DNA from: an uncultured Flavobacteriales bacterium
GTDB taxonomy: Bacteria; Bacteroidota; Bacteroidia; Flavobacteriales_E; Vicingaceae
Assembly (NCBI GenBank): GCA_905479995.1
Contig: CAJQON010000038.1
Coordinates: 1-42,616 of the forward strand
Direction: 5' to 3'
DNA: 42,616 nt
The notes under the pieces were generated by a model. It did not search any database and was not told where the DNA came from. It saw only the letters and a program-made list of their open reading frames with translations. Both the position numbers and the translations under genes were made by a program. Below, piece by piece: positions 32,626 through 38,704 of this stretch; positions within the stretch are counted from its first letter, which is position 1, and every line of letters starts with the position of its first letter.

Positions 32626-33363
32626 TTAGTTTTTATTTGCCAACCGCTGAATTATATCTTTTTTTCGAGTTCTAGCTACACTAATTTTGTCACCATTATG
32701 CATTTCTAAAGATCCTCCACGGCCATTATTGTAGGCTTTTACGAAATCAATATTAATAATATGAGACTGGTGCACCCTTAAAAAAGTCTCCTTAGGCAAA
32801 AGCTCTTCAAACTCTTTCAAGTTTTTAGAAACAAACAGCATGGTCTCATCTTTAAAAAACACTTTGGAATAGTTTCCATCGGATTGACATCGAATTATTT
32901 CTGCTTCATAAGCATAACGGATGCCCTTAGCGTGCTTAATGACTATTTTTTTTGCACTTGTTGGATTGTTTAGGTTCTCCAAAAACACAGAAACATTTTC
33001 TGTTTTCCCTTCAATTTTCGCAATAGCCATTTGGAGGTCGGCAATATTAACGGGTTTAATTAAGTAGTCTAAAGCACTGTATTTTATAGCCTTTAAGGCA
33101 TATTTATCATAACTTGTTACAAAAATTACATGAAAATCAACATCTTTCATTTCTCGCAACATATCAAAACCAGATTTTTCGGGCATTTGAACATCTAAAA
33201 AAACTAAGCTAGGGTTAGTATCTTTTATTAATTGAATGCCTTGGTCGGCAGAATTGGCAAGGCCTAAAATGTTAATTTCGGTACAATACTTTTTTAAAAT
33301 ACCATAAAGGGCTTCTCTTACTTTTTTCTCATCATCAATAATTACAGCAGTAATAGGTGCCAT
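32626..33363 (-). CDS. LytTR-family response regulator
   Basis: A 245-residue transcription regulator. Residues 1-120 are a receiver domain: acidic pocket Asp10, Asp11; phospho-acceptor Asp57 in VFLDVQMPEKSG; Thr/Ser-containing VTSYDKYALKA; and Lys in YLIKPVN. Residues about 140-245 are a LytTR DNA-binding domain (IIRCQSDGNYSKVFF, LRVHQSHIINIDFV, SVARTRKKDI). The gene follows its probable kinase by 4 bases. Members bind paired direct repeats at promoters; targets are unknown here, and the adjacent CotH-like gene is a natural candidate. Confidence 0.93.
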   Translation of the reverse strand: MAPITAVIIDDEKKVREALYGILKKYCTEINILGLANSADQGIQLIKDTNPSLVFLDVQMPEKSGFDMLREMKDVDFHVIFVTSYDKYALKAIKYSALDYLIKPVNIADLQMAIAKIEGKTENVSVFLENLNNPTSAKKIVIKHAKGIRYAYEAEIIRCQSDGNYSKVFFKDETMLFVSKNLKEFEELLPKETFLRVHQSHIINIDFVKAYNNGRGGSLEMHNGDKISVARTRKKDIIQRLANKN

Positions 33364-33367
33364 TGGT

Positions 33368-34477
33368 TTAAAAATTTATAGGGATGTATAATTCTACCCG
33401 TGTTCCTGTGGGGGCATTTGTTTTAGTTAATAAATCGGTATATATAATTTTATACTTTTTTTTATGCTCCTTCCATAAAATATCTAAGCGTTTATTGGTA
33501 ACATTTAAACTATGCAGCGGCTGTTTTTTCTTTTCCGTTATAGGTTGTTTTTCCTTATGTTTTCTACCAACTCCATTATCTTCAATGGTACATTTAAGCG
33601 TTATATCATCTATCAAGTCAAGTTTTAAAAGAATTTTCCCTCCCTTTATTTTGTTAATTCCATGCCATATAGAATTTTCAAGAAAAGGCTGTATGAGCAG
33701 CGGAGGAATTGTAGCATTACCTACGTTTAAGTCCTCGTCAATTTCAATTATTAAATCCCAAGGGTTGTCCATTCGCATTTTTTCAATAGAAACATACGTG
33801 TTTAGTAAAGTAATAATTTCTTCAATAGAAACATAGTCGTTATATGACTGCTCGAAACTTAAGCGCATAAGTCTGCCAAAATCAGCTAAGTAATTTACAG
33901 CTTCTTCAGTGTTCTTATCTACTATAAATCCTTGTATAGAAGACAAACAGTTGGAAACAAAATGAGGGTTTATAACCGCTTGAAGTGCCCTTAATTCAAT
34001 GTTGTTCCGCTCTCTTTCTAAAGCAGCATTGGTAATAAGAAGTTCTTCTTTTTGCGCTTTTATAATTTCCAAAGATTTTTCTAGTGCCTTTCGGTTTTTC
34101 TCGGCCATCTTTGCGTAAGAGTCGAGTAAATAATCTTTCTCTTTTTCTTTGGAGTAATCGGTTACTGTTATAATAAACTCAGTGAGGGGAGACCCGGTGA
34201 ATTGGAGCTTTAATATTTTAGATCTTTTATTCTCTTTTATTTCACACTCAATACTGTAAGGTTTATTTTGCCCTAATTTTTTCTTTAGCCTTTCAAGGTT
34301 TACTTTACAAATTCGGTCAACAATTAAGTCCGTTTTAGTCTTTGCTGGAAACCAAGAAGTAAACATCTCATTCTCAAAAGTGGTCGTTAATTTGTCCCAA
34401 GAAACTATAGCAATTCCAATATTTCCATTTGAAATAAATTGATTGATTACTGCTATTTCGATAGTTTTATTAGACAA
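33368..34477 (-). CDS. Soluble LytS/YehU-type sensor histidine kinase with PAS-like N-terminus
   Basis: A 369-residue kinase without membrane segments. Residues 1-110 look like a PAS-type sensor domain. Residues 115-165 form a coiled coil (AEKNRKALEKSLEIIKAQKE). Then comes the His_kinase domain with the phospho-acceptor His172 in VINPHFVSNCLSS, the N box PPLLIQPFLENSIWHG and the G1 box IEDNGVGRKHKE. The start must be TTG 34477, 10 bases after the globin stop, because no ATG lies near. No haem-binding motif is visible in the kinase itself, so the co-encoded globin could supply the input. Phosphotransfer to the downstream LytTR regulator is expected. Confidence 0.88.
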   Translation of the reverse strand: MSNKTIEIAVINQFISNGNIGIAIVSWDKLTTTFENEMFTSWFPAKTKTDLIVDRICKVNLERLKKKLGQNKPYSIECEIKENKRSKILKLQFTGSPLTEFIITVTDYSKEKEKDYLLDSYAKMAEKNRKALEKSLEIIKAQKEELLITNAALERERNNIELRALQAVINPHFVSNCLSSIQGFIVDKNTEEAVNYLADFGRLMRLSFEQSYNDYVSIEEIITLLNTYVSIEKMRMDNPWDLIIEIDEDLNVGNATIPPLLIQPFLENSIWHGINKIKGGKILLKLDLIDDITLKCTIEDNGVGRKHKEKQPITEKKKQPLHSLNVTNKRLDILWKEHKKKYKIIYTDLLTKTNAPTGTRVELYIPINF

Positions 34478-34487
34478 GTTATACTTT

Positions 34488-34847
34488 TTAAGTAACTACA
34501 ATAAATTCACGTTTGCTTTCAAAGGCTTCAGATATGGTTACAACATGCTCTTCCGATAATTCGAAATCCTCTAGTGTTTCTTCCAAGCAACTTTTAGTTA
34601 AATTAAACTGAGAGTCGTTAATGTTTAGTCTTAAATGAACTCGCTTTAATTCTTCATCGGTATATGAAGCAGGGCCACCTAAAAGCATGGCAAAAAACTT
34701 TGTTTGATGATCAATGAGGCTTTCCATGTTAACCTTTTCAAAGAGGGTAGCTAATTCTTCTTCTTCTAATACGTTGTCGTAAAAAGAAGAAATTAATTTT
34801 CTGACAGAAGAGAACCCTCCTAATTGATCATAAATTGAAGTAGACAT
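34488..34847 (-). CDS. Group 1 truncated haemoglobin
   Basis: A 119-residue single-domain globin with the 2-over-2 fold pattern: SIYDQLGG at the start, Tyr23 at the B10 position (SSFYDNVL), HQTKFFAMLLGGPASY, and the proximal His71 (F8) in LKRVHLRLNI. Such proteins bind O2, NO or CO; many detoxify NO. It is the first gene of a three-gene unit with a histidine kinase 10 bases downstream and a LytTR regulator after that, which hints at a sensing rather than purely protective role (inference). A -7 box lies 57 bases upstream. Confidence 0.88.
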   Translation of the reverse strand: MSTSIYDQLGGFSSVRKLISSFYDNVLEEEELATLFEKVNMESLIDHQTKFFAMLLGGPASYTDEELKRVHLRLNINDSQFNLTKSCLEETLEDFELSEEHVVTISEAFESKREFIVVT

Positions 34848-34903
34848 AAAACTTAAAAAGTTAGTAATTTTTAGACATTTTTTAACAAGATAATTTAAAA
34901 ATT

Positions 34904-34911
34904 CAAATATA
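34904..34911 (-). promoter_or_regulatory. Candidate -7 box of the globin-kinase-regulator operon
   Basis: Minus-strand TATATTTG, exact TAnnTTTG match, 56 bases before ATG 34847. No -33 TTG at 17-23 bases. Confidence 0.4.
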
Positions 34912-34983
34912 GCTAATAAAGTTATTTGGCGCTTTTTGTGTTCTATAATTTGTTATTTGTGTCAAAATCGATGAGATATGGGT

Positions 34984-34999
34984 GTTTTACATGTAAAAC
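34984..34999. promoter_or_regulatory. Perfect 16-base palindrome in the divergent spacer
   Basis: GTTTTACATGTAAAAC equals its own reverse complement. It lies between the globin operon and the large T9SS gene (spacer 34848-35122) and looks like a dimeric-regulator site. By my estimate about one perfect 16-base palindrome is expected by chance in a window of this size and composition, so position is the main argument. Confidence 0.35.
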
Positions 35000-35122
35000 T
35001 GTTGATTATTCCCAAATTTACTCAAAAAGTACCCAATGGATAAGTGGATTGACATCTATTGTGCTCTGGCATTGGAAGAATCGTAATATTATTCATTATC
35101 AAAACTTACCAATACTACTATC

Positions 35123-38100
35123 ATGGAAAAAACAGGGATAATTTGGACGCTACTTTTACTCTTTTCAATTTCAACTACAAATGCTCAAACCACAATGTAC
35201 GCACGCTCTAATGGCAATTGGAACGATGCTGCTGCAGGCTCCGGAACATGGTCAACTGTGTCTCCAGGAGGTGTTGCTTGTGGATTAGTTCCAACGGCTG
35301 TGGATGTTGTTATAATAGATGGGTACACCGTTACAGTAGCAGTTCCTGGCGATTGTAAAGATTTAACTATAGAGTCGGGAAGTGCTTTAAGCATAGACAA
35401 TAATAGAGGGATTCGATTTAATAATAGCGGAACTATAACTTTAAAAAATGGAGGTTCAATTGCACATAGTGGAGCTGGATCTAATGCCTATTTTTATTTT
35501 GAGTCTGGAGCACCTTCAATGATTATTGAGTCTGGTTTTACGTTTAATATAGATGACATTGGAATAGCTGCCAATGATTCTTTAACAATAAGTGGAGCTG
35601 GAGATTTAACATTAACAGATGATTTTAGTTTTTATGCTGCAAATGCTTATGTAACGAATAATCTTACGGGAAATTTTAATCTAACTGGCCCTTCAGCATC
35701 TAGTTTATGGTATAAAAATAGCTCAAGTGGTTGCACATTTATAAACAATGGCCCAATGTTTTGTGACCGATACCTCTATTTTCAAGCTCCGAATTCGGTA
35801 TTTATTAATAGTAGTACAGTTAACTTAACTAGTGCAACTTATGGTATTGGAATGACCTCTGGAGATGCTACTGGAACAATAATAACCAATCAAGCATCAG
35901 GAACCATTGATATTGCTGGATCGTTTGCGGCATCCAACAATCAAATGACGTTTAATAATTACGGAACCTTAGATTTAGAAGGAGATTTAAATGGTTGGTC
36001 TGGCTCGGCACCGAGTGAGTTTCATAATTTTAGTGGAGCATCGTTTTATTTTGGAGGAACAGGCAATTTTTATGGTGATTTTTATGCCAATTATAACGGA
36101 AATTTAGTGGAATTTGACAATACAACCACCTTACAAAATGAATTGATTGATCCAGAAGACAATTATTGGAACATTACCTTTTCTGGTTTTCAAAAGCAAA
36201 TGAAAAGTAGCTTTTCTGTTAAAGGAGATTGTAATATAGAAACGAATGTTTATTTAACCGTTACTAGAAACATTACCATGGATAATGGCGGAACAATAAC
36301 TATTGGAAGCGGTGGCTCATTAACCACAAGTACAGGATCTGGAACGGTAAATTTTGCCAATGGATATACATATGAGATGGTAATTGATGATGCAACAACA
36401 GGTTATGAGTGGGATTACATTAAGGTGTATGATGATGTAACGCTTAACATAAGTGGTGCAGGAAAAATCTTATTGGATAATGATATAAGCTTTGAAGGAA
36501 ACAACAGTACTGTAACTAATAATCTAATAGGAAACCATACTATTAATAGAGATATTTGGTTTACACCTACAGTTTCAGGGAATGAATTTGTTAATAATGA
36601 GCCAATTACAATCAACGATGACATTACTTGGAATGGATCAAACAATACTGTTACTAATAATGATTCTATTATATTGGTTAATGATTTGTTATTTAATGAT
36701 ACCTCTGGATATTTAAACAACAATATTGGCGGGGTAATTCTTTGTGGAGATGATATTAATTTTAATGCGAGTACTAAAAATAAAGTAAACAATGCAGGAA
36801 CTTTAATTGCTAACGGAAACGGAACAGGAGGGATTTTTTATTCAGGATTATTTGACACAATTGTTAATTCAGGAACACTAACCACTTTAGAAAAATTAAA
36901 AGTTGATGGAGATACAAATGATGACAATGTGTTTATTAATAGTTCAGGAGGGCTGCTTAATGTTTCAGGAGATTTTCAATTAAACGATGCTGATTTTATA
37001 TTTGACAATTCAGGGACATTTAATTTAACAGGACGTTTTGATGATATGGGAGGTGTAGAAGCCTTTTATAATAGAGCAGGAGCAGTAGTAAATTATTATG
37101 GAACACACAATGTAAATATAAACACAGAGTTATCTTTATATGCCAACTATTCAGGCAACTCTTTTAATTATTTAGGGGCTGCAGCACAAGATGTAGTAGT
37201 GCCAAAAGATGCTTACTGGAATTTAACTTTAGGAGGGTCTGGAATTAAAGAAACACAAGGAAACTTAGATGTTAATGGAAATGTTTTAATAATAGGAACG
37301 GCCGATTTTGATGCCAATACGAACAATGATGCTATTACTATAGCTGGAAACTGGACCTCTACCGCTACTTTTAACGAAGGAACTGAATTGGTAACTTTTG
37401 ATGGTACTGCTGATCAAACAATTAATACAGCTGGTGGCGAAACCTTTTACAATTGGACCATAAATAAAGCTTCAGGTAAAGTAATAATGGATACGGATGT
37501 GGATTTAACAAATGTATTGACATTAACCGCTGGTGCCTGTGACCTTAATTCCAACACACTAACCTTAAACCTACAAAACACAGCGGCAATATTGCGTACA
37601 GCAGGATATGTCATCAGCGATCAAACAGACAACTCAAGCAAACTAGTTAGAAACATTGGATCCACCATGGATACTTTTCTGTATCCTTTTGGAAAGTCAG
37701 ATGGCGTATATATCCCATTTAGTTTAGTAGCTACCTCGGGGGATTTGGGATATGTTACGCTATCTACTTATGCAACAGGATCTAATAATTTGCCTTGGCC
37801 TACCGCACCAGATGTCGTGGCCAATTTAAATAGTGTAATCAATGCTTTGCCCGACAATAGAGACAACACGATAGATCGATTTTGGCAAATTGACAAATCT
37901 GGACCATCTGGAACGGCCAACCTTAACTTTAGCTATTCGCAAACTGAAGTAAGTGGGAATGTTTCGGCAAGTGAAAATTTGTTGGAAGCACAACGATACA
38001 ATACTTCTACCAATAAATGGGAGCAGGCAATTGCAGCACAAACTGCCAATGCCACCAACAACACTGTTCAGGTTCTTGGCGTAAGTTCATTTTCGCCATG

Positions 38101-38704
38101 GAGTTTGGCCATATCTAGCGCTCCACTACCAATTACATTAGTAGAATTTAATGCCATTTTAAGAGACAACGAAACAGAGTTAACTTGGGCCACTTCAGCA
38201 CAAATAAACAATGATTTCTTTACCTTAGAAAAAAGTACCGATGCCAAAACTTTTGTACCGTTTGCTACCATAGCAGGAGCAGGAACCAACAACAGTTTGT
38301 TGAGTTATTATGAACGAGATTATGAAGTAGCAGACGGAATAACTTATTACCGATTAAAACAAACCGATTTTAATGGAGATTATACTTACTCTAACATTGT
38401 TCCTGTAAATAAAACAGTAGAATTAATGGCTTTTAATGTTTTTCCAAACCCAGCCAAATGGGATAATTTACATGTGAAGATAGAGGGAGAATTAAAGGAA
38501 GACATCTTAATAATAATAAGAAATATACAAGGAAAAGAATGCTATTCTAAGCTATTGCCAGCTGAAGAAGGATTAAATGAATATGTGTTAAAACCACCTT
38601 ATGAACTGGCTCCTGGACCATACATTATAATTGGTTCTTCGAGTAATAAACTCTTTAATACCAAGCTTATTATTACAGGAAATAGTGAAGCAAATAACCG
38701 ATAA
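35123..38704 (+). CDS. Large secreted beta-rich surface protein with T9SS type A tail
   Basis: A 1193-residue exported protein. The signal peptide ends at ISTTNAQ. Residues 25-100 form the common opening YARSNGNWND to VDVVIIDGYTV seen in T9SS surface proteins. Residues 100-800 are a long series of short Asn/Gly/Asp-rich strands with NNTVTNN and ISGAGxLxLxxD motifs, probably a beta-helix or solenoid. Two regions resemble each other: about 301-355 (DFYANYNGN to YWNITFSG) and 648-705 (LYANYSGN to YWNLTLGG). Residues about 1000-1090 are a fibronectin-like LVEFNA to YYRLKQTDFNG module, and 1104-1193 a type A tail (VFPNPAKWDNL). No enzyme motif is seen. Confidence 0.85.
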   Translation: MEKTGIIWTLLLLFSISTTNAQTTMYARSNGNWNDAAAGSGTWSTVSPGGVACGLVPTAVDVVIIDGYTVTVAVPGDCKDLTIESGSALSIDNNRGIRFNNSGTITLKNGGSIAHSGAGSNAYFYFESGAPSMIIESGFTFNIDDIGIAANDSLTISGAGDLTLTDDFSFYAANAYVTNNLTGNFNLTGPSASSLWYKNSSSGCTFINNGPMFCDRYLYFQAPNSVFINSSTVNLTSATYGIGMTSGDATGTIITNQASGTIDIAGSFAASNNQMTFNNYGTLDLEGDLNGWSGSAPSEFHNFSGASFYFGGTGNFYGDFYANYNGNLVEFDNTTTLQNELIDPEDNYWNITFSGFQKQMKSSFSVKGDCNIETNVYLTVTRNITMDNGGTITIGSGGSLTTSTGSGTVNFANGYTYEMVIDDATTGYEWDYIKVYDDVTLNISGAGKILLDNDISFEGNNSTVTNNLIGNHTINRDIWFTPTVSGNEFVNNEPITINDDITWNGSNNTVTNNDSIILVNDLLFNDTSGYLNNNIGGVILCGDDINFNASTKNKVNNAGTLIANGNGTGGIFYSGLFDTIVNSGTLTTLEKLKVDGDTNDDNVFINSSGGLLNVSGDFQLNDADFIFDNSGTFNLTGRFDDMGGVEAFYNRAGAVVNYYGTHNVNINTELSLYANYSGNSFNYLGAAAQDVVVPKDAYWNLTLGGSGIKETQGNLDVNGNVLIIGTADFDANTNNDAITIAGNWTSTATFNEGTELVTFDGTADQTINTAGGETFYNWTINKASGKVIMDTDVDLTNVLTLTAGACDLNSNTLTLNLQNTAAILRTAGYVISDQTDNSSKLVRNIGSTMDTFLYPFGKSDGVYIPFSLVATSGDLGYVTLSTYATGSNNLPWPTAPDVVANLNSVINALPDNRDNTIDRFWQIDKSGPSGTANLNFSYSQTEVSGNVSASENLLEAQRYNTSTNKWEQAIAAQTANATNNTVQVLGVSSFSPWSLAISSAPLPITLVEFNAILRDNETELTWATSAQINNDFFTLEKSTDAKTFVPFATIAGAGTNNSLLSYYERDYEVADGITYYRLKQTDFNGDYTYSNIVPVNKTVELMAFNVFPNPAKWDNLHVKIEGELKEDILIIIRNIQGKECYSKLLPAEEGLNEYVLKPPYELAPGPYIIIGSSSNKLFNTKLIITGNSEANNR

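Follow-up and report, generated by a model that had tools for sequence, protein, structure and literature searches.

Truncated haemoglobins (trHbs) are widespread, and their roles have mostly been read as detoxification of nitric oxide (NO) or binding of oxygen (O2). Haem sensing by two separate proteins is known from H-NOX and NosP. Stand-alone H-NOX proteins are described as separate small haem proteins that give input to a histidine kinase or diguanylate cyclase from another gene (PMC8846402, PMC8738867). Globin-coupled sensors such as DgcO/YddV, and NmpU of Myxococcus with its protoglobin domain, place a histidine kinase or diguanylate cyclase under the control of a globin haem (PMC6211767, PMC8846402). 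One further source classes globins as single-domain, trHbs included, or chimeric, i.e. flavohaemoglobins and globin-coupled sensors (PMC1457004). The present analysis concerns a group I trHb gene that precedes genes for a soluble histidine kinase and a LytTR-type response regulator in DNA of an uncultured Flavobacteriales bacterium (assembly GCA_905479995.1, contig CAJQON010000038.1; the window, i.e. the whole stretch analysed, spans 42,616 nucleotides (nt)). Judged from sequence, this trio probably encodes a haem-based gas sensor made of two pieces, together with the regulator it acts on; the free trHb would report O2 or NO to a partner protein that carries a PAS domain. It is also likely that the trio belongs to a family of split haem sensors for which no description was seen in the open-access literature searched, in which one trHb clade, marked by His at position E10 and Gln at E11, would provide plug-in subunits for dedicated PAS domains with at least five outputs in Bacteroidota and Pseudomonadota.

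In all trHb-PAS pairs assembled here (18/18, see below) the gene for a free haem protein adjoins a kinase or cyclase gene, and the likeness to H-NOX systems such as HnoX/HnoK of Shewanella oneidensis and H-NOX/Dgc1 of Dinoroseobacter lies in this separate haem protein as input. Unlike those systems, the haem protein of the trio and its relatives is a 2/2 truncated haemoglobin (PF01152) and not an H-NOX (HNOB) protein, the partner has a characteristic PAS domain, and class III cyclases and LytS kinases are also found as outputs; the trio is best read as working like a stand-alone H-NOX without belonging to the H-NOX family. The globins of globin-coupled sensors are of the 3/3 kind and fused to the output, whereas the globin here is of the truncated kind and a separate protein; neither a 3/3 sensor globin nor a fusion to an output was found. 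Globin and partner occupy separate reading frames in 18/18 pairs, the window globin matches PF01152 only (Pfam, E<=0.01), and its relatives reach Protoglobin only below that family's cut-off. The LytS/LytTR and BtsS/BtsR systems have the PF06580 kinase and LytTR regulator in common with this locus, where both stand in a single unit, but here there is no membrane sensor, the input is a soluble PAS domain and a globin gene stands in front. Among the open-access matches listed, titles and abstract openings gave no account of free trHbs that pair with signalling proteins, and an earlier description is possible.

The trHb-kinase-regulator trio

The three genes lie on the minus strand in the order trHb, kinase, regulator (Table 1), with intergenic gaps of 10 nt between globin and kinase and 4 nt between kinase and regulator. 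A first-pass annotation, made from the letters alone, had described them as a one-strand three-gene unit; its coordinates and gaps proved exact, and Pfam (window proteins scanned at E<=0.01) agrees for all three products. Assignment of the globin to group 1 was likewise borne out, as Bac_globin was matched well above its curated cut-off (67.5 bits against 21) and the best matches in the PDB were the group I trHbs GlbN/HbN. The sole Pfam match of the kinase was His_kinase (PF06580), with the motifs NPHF at 170 (containing His172), ENSIWHG at 267 and EDNGVG at 299 intact. The regulator matched Response_reg (1.5e-19) and LytTR (1.7e-14), retains its receiver aspartate, and has BtsR as its nearest NCBIfam model, below the cut-off of that model.

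A search of the family covered 46 genomes, and an order-level search gave the same 46. A related kinase domain was present in all of them and a full-length orthologue in 2/46, i.e. the window genome (G000) and G027. The kinase of G027 is 66% identical to that of the window, its trio has the same gene order, and the same trio in the same order was found in another Flavobacteriales metagenome-assembled genome (MAG; locus L094); regulator identity across both orthologous trios is 77-79%. Had orthologous kinases usually lacked the globin, the first-pass annotation would have taken the link as incidental; the opposite was seen, with globin and regulator accompanying 3/3 orthologues. The kinases start with TTG in the window and with TTG and GTG in the two orthologues, the latter two 6 nt past the globin stop, and such starts, 6-10 nt past the globin stop, suggest translational coupling.

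Wider searches showed how the pairing is distributed. Scanning one genome each of 84,980 species with two short peptide patterns from the trHb alignment, an approach that can miss relatives and may omit the window's own record, yielded five loci: the G027 contig, L094 and three Colwellia MAGs. A two-row N-terminal profile run against 395 genomes of the window's class recovered the window, G027 and one weak match of 37 positions. A class-wide trHb search of Bacteroidota matched 32/395 genomes, and among the best 30 loci taken from it no such PAS partner occurred outside G000 and G027, so that pairing as a habit of LytS kinases was rejected. Similarly, the 17-row profile of paired trHbs (A12, see below) matched 7/149 Bacteroidota genomes, none of them with a further pair. 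The proposed adjacency of globins and LytS-type kinases thus stands for the 3/3 orthologues and not as a general feature of Bacteroidota; the kinase orthologue was found in 2/46 genomes of the order. The conserved partner of the globin is corrected from the LytS kinase to its N-terminal PAS-like domain, as four other outputs were found in Pseudomonadota.

trHb-PAS pairs with other outputs

The trHbs of the three Colwellia MAGs share 38-39% identity with that of the window, and each overlaps the start of a soluble HisKA-HATPase-receiver hybrid kinase whose N-terminus aligns with that of the window kinase (BLASTP E 2e-5, 18% identity over about 120 residues). A profile of this N-terminal part (A7, six rows), searched against 295 Colwellia-family genomes at E<=1e-4, gave 11 loci in 10 genomes, two of them the query and nine new. 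In each of the nine new loci (9/9) a same-strand trHb immediately precedes the partner, which is a hybrid HisKA kinase (L103-L105), a HisKA kinase without a receiver (L106, L107), a GGDEF cyclase (L108-L110) or a class III nucleotide cyclase (L111). A 14-row profile run against 350 Gammaproteobacteria at E<=1e-3 returned six loci, comprising the Colwellia query, a second trHb-PAS-GGDEF pair of the query genome (L117, 24.4 bits) and four loci without a trHb.

The pairing extends beyond Gammaproteobacteria. When the N-terminus of the window kinase was compared by tblastn with 72,556 plasmid records (E<=0.01), a single record was matched, pLA3 of Novosphingobium pentaromativorans US6-1 (L120; E 1e-3, 20% identity), on which a 'group 1 truncated hemoglobin' is separated by 4 nt from a PAS-class III cyclase, with a hybrid kinase and a regulator beyond. 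Plasmid trHb searches matched 30 and 33 records, and neighbours were viewed at four, one of them paired; the three other trHbs had no such partner and one precedes a 2Fe-2S reductase. Phage records gave no trHb match. A profile of 17 paired trHb rows (A12) matched 54/151 Pseudomonadota genomes, and neighbours were examined at 20 loci. The best non-query match, at 8.5e-38 (the next being 1.9e-25), was in G1260 and belongs to a new pair (L125) of a trHb and a PAS-class III cyclase that is in neither profile.

In total, 18 distinct trHb-PAS pairs were obtained from Flavobacteriales, Gammaproteobacteria, Novosphingobium and the Pseudomonadota genome G1260. All are on the same strand (18/18) with a spacing of -17 to +18 nt when the earliest start codon available is taken, and Pfam distinguishes five output types: LytS kinase, hybrid HisKA kinase, HisKA kinase, GGDEF and class III cyclase. 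A constant trHb and PAS with a variable output is the pattern of a sensor module and is hard to explain if the trHb is a mere target or bystander. The comparison supports the trio as one member of a wider, putative trHb-PAS sensor module that swaps its outputs. Furthermore, the same gene order in both orthologous loci and the recurrence of the pair in 15 further loci place the trio beyond chance. The larger surroundings of five pairs, judged by eye and without a Pfam scan, had no common denitrification or NO genes; OsmC-like and flavoprotein genes were common to the Novosphingobium locus and L125 only.

Haem pocket and co-divergence of trHb and PAS

The window globin carries Tyr23, Phe36, Leu44, His47, Gln48, Phe51 and His71 at what we take to be positions B10, CD1, E7, E10, E11, E14 and F8, placed via alignment to HbN. 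Tyr B10, Phe CD1, His E10, Gln E11 and His F8 are each present in 18/18 paired trHbs and Leu E7 in 16/18, and haem and gas binding by the paired trHbs is predicted from this intact pocket. In HbN, bound O2 is held by Tyr B10 and Gln E11, which also support dioxygenation of NO; O2, or NO read via the oxygenated trHb, is therefore the likeliest ligand. For comparison, 70 distinct trHb frames from all loci collected served as the unpaired set; since 'paired' means having a PAS neighbour, the absence of such a PAS from this set is definitional, which does not apply to the lack of kinases and cyclases there. Position E10 is Lys in 47/70 and His in 15/70 of the unpaired trHbs, and His E10 together with Gln E11 occurs in 18/18 paired versus 1/70 unpaired proteins, the one being a haloarchaeal trHb (L121).

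On a tree with 14 unpaired rows, the 18 paired trHbs are set apart as a single clade (branch support 99/97). The outgroup was hand-picked as 17 of the 70 unpaired rows, from which long-branched L069, L071 and L144 were removed; in the first tree, before this removal, L069 fell inside the paired clade. His E10 is found in 1/14 of the unpaired rows left in the tree, compared with 15/70 of all unpaired trHbs. Output type changes four times on the globin tree and four times on the PAS tree, which is the minimum. Both trees share a deep split that sets hybrid HisKA and HisKA partners apart from GGDEF, cyclase and LytS partners (97/94 for globin, 87/91 for PAS); internal support of the PAS tree is modest (66/23 for the GGDEF group) and several branches are long. 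Globin and PAS distances are correlated (r=0.85, 0/5000 permutations as high), also with one row per lineage (8 lineages; r=0.69, 14/5000 permutations as high). Two genomes, G429 and G458, hold two pairs of different type each, with every globin next to the PAS of its own type; a common species history is therefore not enough to explain the match between trees. Recurrent pairing, exchange of outputs and co-divergence support, at the genetic level, the suggestion of the first-pass annotation that the free globin acts as a detachable sensor subunit.

The PAS-like domain of the kinase

As first read from the sequence, the window kinase lacks both a membrane segment (the Kyte-Doolittle mean over 19 residues peaks at 1.34) and a visible haem site (residues 1-151 hold zero histidine). 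An AlphaFold2 (AF2) model of the N-terminus, built from six rows with a mean predicted local distance difference test (pLDDT) score of 81.7, has the PAS order of elements and a long terminal helix. Foldseek and VIA-align place this model with the PAS domains of WalK, NifL, LOV proteins and FixL, at VIA-align Z of about 9-10 over 104-145 residues, the WalK entry being an integrative model. By its predicted fold the N-terminus is a divergent PAS domain, in agreement with its earlier description as PAS-like. Soluble guanylate cyclase (sGC) PAS domains were not among the 50 VIA-align rows listed, which is uninformative either way. When the whole kinase is modelled with AF2 (mean pLDDT 72.9), the helix reaches residue 168, with residues 163-177 below a pLDDT of 50.

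The PAS profiles of Pfam stay silent for the window kinase at E<=0.01, and no HNOBA match was found in it at the same threshold. HNOBA matches elsewhere cover just the C-terminal linker of two cyclases (L111, 1.6e-5; L120, 0.0012, below the cut-off), and they were rejected as proof because coverage is limited to this linker ahead of the cyclase. Histidine is absent from the N-terminal regions of the window, L108, L110 and L120 proteins, and no histidine is conserved across the 15 aligned. A histidine-free PAS core next to a trHb whose haem pocket is complete fits a split of labour in which the globin would bind the gas and the PAS would relay the signal.

Neighbours of unpaired trHbs

A same-strand frame of at least 100 amino acids (aa) starting -80 to +150 nt downstream was present for 38/70 unpaired trHbs; 13 of these frames were themselves trHbs and the remaining 25 were searched with Pfam at E<=1e-5. 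The neighbours included 11/25 Fer2-FAD-NAD reductases, one TetR regulator and one CdaA-like c-di-AMP synthase, and the 11 reductases fit NO dioxygenase chemistry. These trHb-reductase units resemble the trio in placing a group I trHb in a multi-gene unit, but the partner there is a reductase and not a PAS protein, and E10 of unpaired trHbs is mostly Lys, as given above. Upstream, such a frame was found for 41/70, again with 13 trHbs, and the other 28 were scanned at E<=1e-3; regulators made up 4/28, i.e. sigma-54 activators (L064, L126), a helix-turn-helix (HTH) protein (L121) and a receiver below the cut-off (L151). Histidine kinases, GGDEF domains, class III cyclases and Pfam PAS domains were absent from all downstream (0/25) and upstream (0/28) neighbours at these thresholds.

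Several individual loci deserve mention. Unpaired trHbs stand behind the same-strand sigma-54 activator genes at L064:1480-3339 and L126:1-1869, at 3 and 36 nt, and are perhaps targets of regulation. Tandem trHbs occur in many of the Pseudomonadota loci L127-L143; by eye, the second often has a hydrophobic stretch at its N-terminus, and a Fer2-FAD-NAD reductase comes next. At L068:394-1995 (G398:C1667) ferredoxin- and reductase-like sequence precedes a trHb-like part in one frame that by eye resembles a self-contained NO dioxygenase, and at L066:1462-2634 (G143:C35) a 390-aa frame ends in a trHb, its N-terminal part looking non-globin. A trHb of another clade at L067:1-858 (G149:C136), beside a ParA-family gene, is in frame with a PAS-looking part (by eye), the frame being cut by the contig end; in view of this possible natural fusion, linkage of trHb and PAS may have more than one origin. 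The window genome encodes a second trHb, of the unpaired clade (L001, G000:C16:15067-15381), with a methyltransferase as upstream neighbour. Upstream of the Novosphingobium pair (L120:636-4357) and of the G1260 pair L125 (L152:2883-5712), genes for an OsmC-like protein (42%) and a flavoprotein oxidoreductase (41%) are common to both loci, and the oxidoreductase is a possible electron source for the trHb.

Proposed mechanism and alternative explanations

In the proposed mechanism, the free trHb would bind O2, or react with NO, at its own haem and, in one ligand or redox state, would dock on the apparently haem-free PAS domain of its partner. A PAS dimer may then relay the change along the long helix to the kinase, which would autophosphorylate on His172 and pass the phosphate to Asp57 of the LytTR regulator. 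In other loci the same trHb-PAS input would drive hybrid kinases, diguanylate cyclases or class III nucleotide cyclases. We infer the docking, the PAS dimer, the ligand, the direction of control and the target genes.

A number of observations weigh against this mechanism or against the sensor family. Because the paired set was collected by similarity, its tight clustering is partly built in, and the N-terminal domains of the other output types are just 13-23% identical to that of the window. Pfam detects a PAS domain above the cut-off in 1/15 partners scanned loosely enough, namely the Novosphingobium protein (PAS_8, 24.4 bits against 21.8). Ordinary-looking PAS proteins without a trHb (L113-L116) scored 21.5-25.1 bits with the 14-row profile, a range that includes the score of the L117 pair, so that near its limit the profile cannot separate pairs from ordinary PAS proteins; moreover, 120 genomes of the L094 family gave, besides the L094 locus, one weak partial match without a trHb. 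His E10 alone is not exclusive to the paired clade, as the 15 unpaired trHbs with this residue attest, and the pocket is of a type known for O2 binding and NO dioxygenation, with which an enzyme role would be compatible. Regulators upstream of unpaired trHbs indicate that trHbs can also be linked to signalling genes in places where they are probably targets of control.

These last points lead to an unlikely alternative, in which the trHb is not a sensor but an NO dioxygenase or O2 scavenger that is controlled or accompanied by a protein sensing something else. It would account for the HbN-like pocket, for the reductases (11/25) and regulators (4/28) around unpaired trHbs and for the flavoprotein oxidoreductase gene upstream in the Novosphingobium locus and L125, but not for partners that have their PAS input in common while their outputs differ, nor for the co-divergence of trHb and PAS. 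Nucleotide and diguanylate cyclases, moreover, do not regulate transcription of an adjoining gene, and the upstream regulators stand beside unpaired trHbs rather than paired ones. A ferredoxin-type reductase was found in 0/7 window proteins scanned, the trHb included, and detoxification with a dedicated adjoining reductase was rejected on this ground. We consider it quite improbable that the trHb instead serves as a gate or haem supplier, scavenging NO or O2 near the PAS or donating haem to it, with the PAS itself as haem sensor. PAS is a known haem-sensor fold and FixL is among the structural matches, but the histidine-free N-terminal regions described above argue against haem binding by the PAS, Cys or other ligation being still possible. 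An incidental operon of chance neighbours without functional link might be suspected from the rarity of the trio (2/46 genomes), which could be a recent local arrangement, but it is scarcely credible for a pair kept in two phyla despite changed outputs and unlike surroundings.

Features of the locus and neighbouring genes

Table 1. Features of the trio and its divergent neighbour in the window.
Feature	Position	Strand	Basis
Group I trHb of 119 aa, putative gas-sensing subunit	34488..34847	-	PF01152 1.6e-18
Soluble histidine kinase of 369 aa (start codon TTG) with PAS-like domain, signalling helix and HPK-type kinase part	33368..34477	-	PF06580 2.9e-18
PAS-like N-terminal domain of kinase, residues about 19-108, proposed globin docking site	34154..34423	-	AF2, Foldseek, VIA-align
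Continuous helix linking PAS to kinase, residues 109-168	33974..34153	-	AF2 full-kinase model
LytTR-type response regulator, receiver Asp57 and LytTR DNA-binding domain	32626..33363	-	PF00072, PF04397
Divergent intergenic region, candidate promoter and regulator target	34848..35122	.	Position
Large secreted-looking protein, divergent from trio, candidate target gene	35123..38704	+	Homologues in both other trios

The large divergent protein has no Pfam match at E<=0.01, and its homologues stand in the same divergent position in both other trios (71% identity over 1177 aa and 43% over 812 aa); it is a possible target of the regulator. Conserved LytTR sites or repeats were sought in the divergent intergenic regions of the three trios and no clear one was found. 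Directly downstream of the regulator lies a gene for a CotH-like kinase protein (PF08757, 30018-32531, minus strand), and the 3' neighbour differs in G027 and L094.

Implications for trHb function

If the reading given here is correct, trHb-PAS pairs would join H-NOX and NosP as a third haem sensing system made of two proteins, and would add a haem input to c-di-GMP, cyclic nucleotide and two-component signalling. Annotation easily overlooks such an input, since the globin is encoded apart from the output and the PAS domains mostly fall below the Pfam cut-off. His E10 with Gln E11, and a PAS partner next door, would then offer a rule for telling sensor from enzyme. The presence of a pair on a plasmid of a named strain, N. 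pentaromativorans US6-1, makes the system testable, and a clade devoted to signalling would give some trHbs a direct, testable job.

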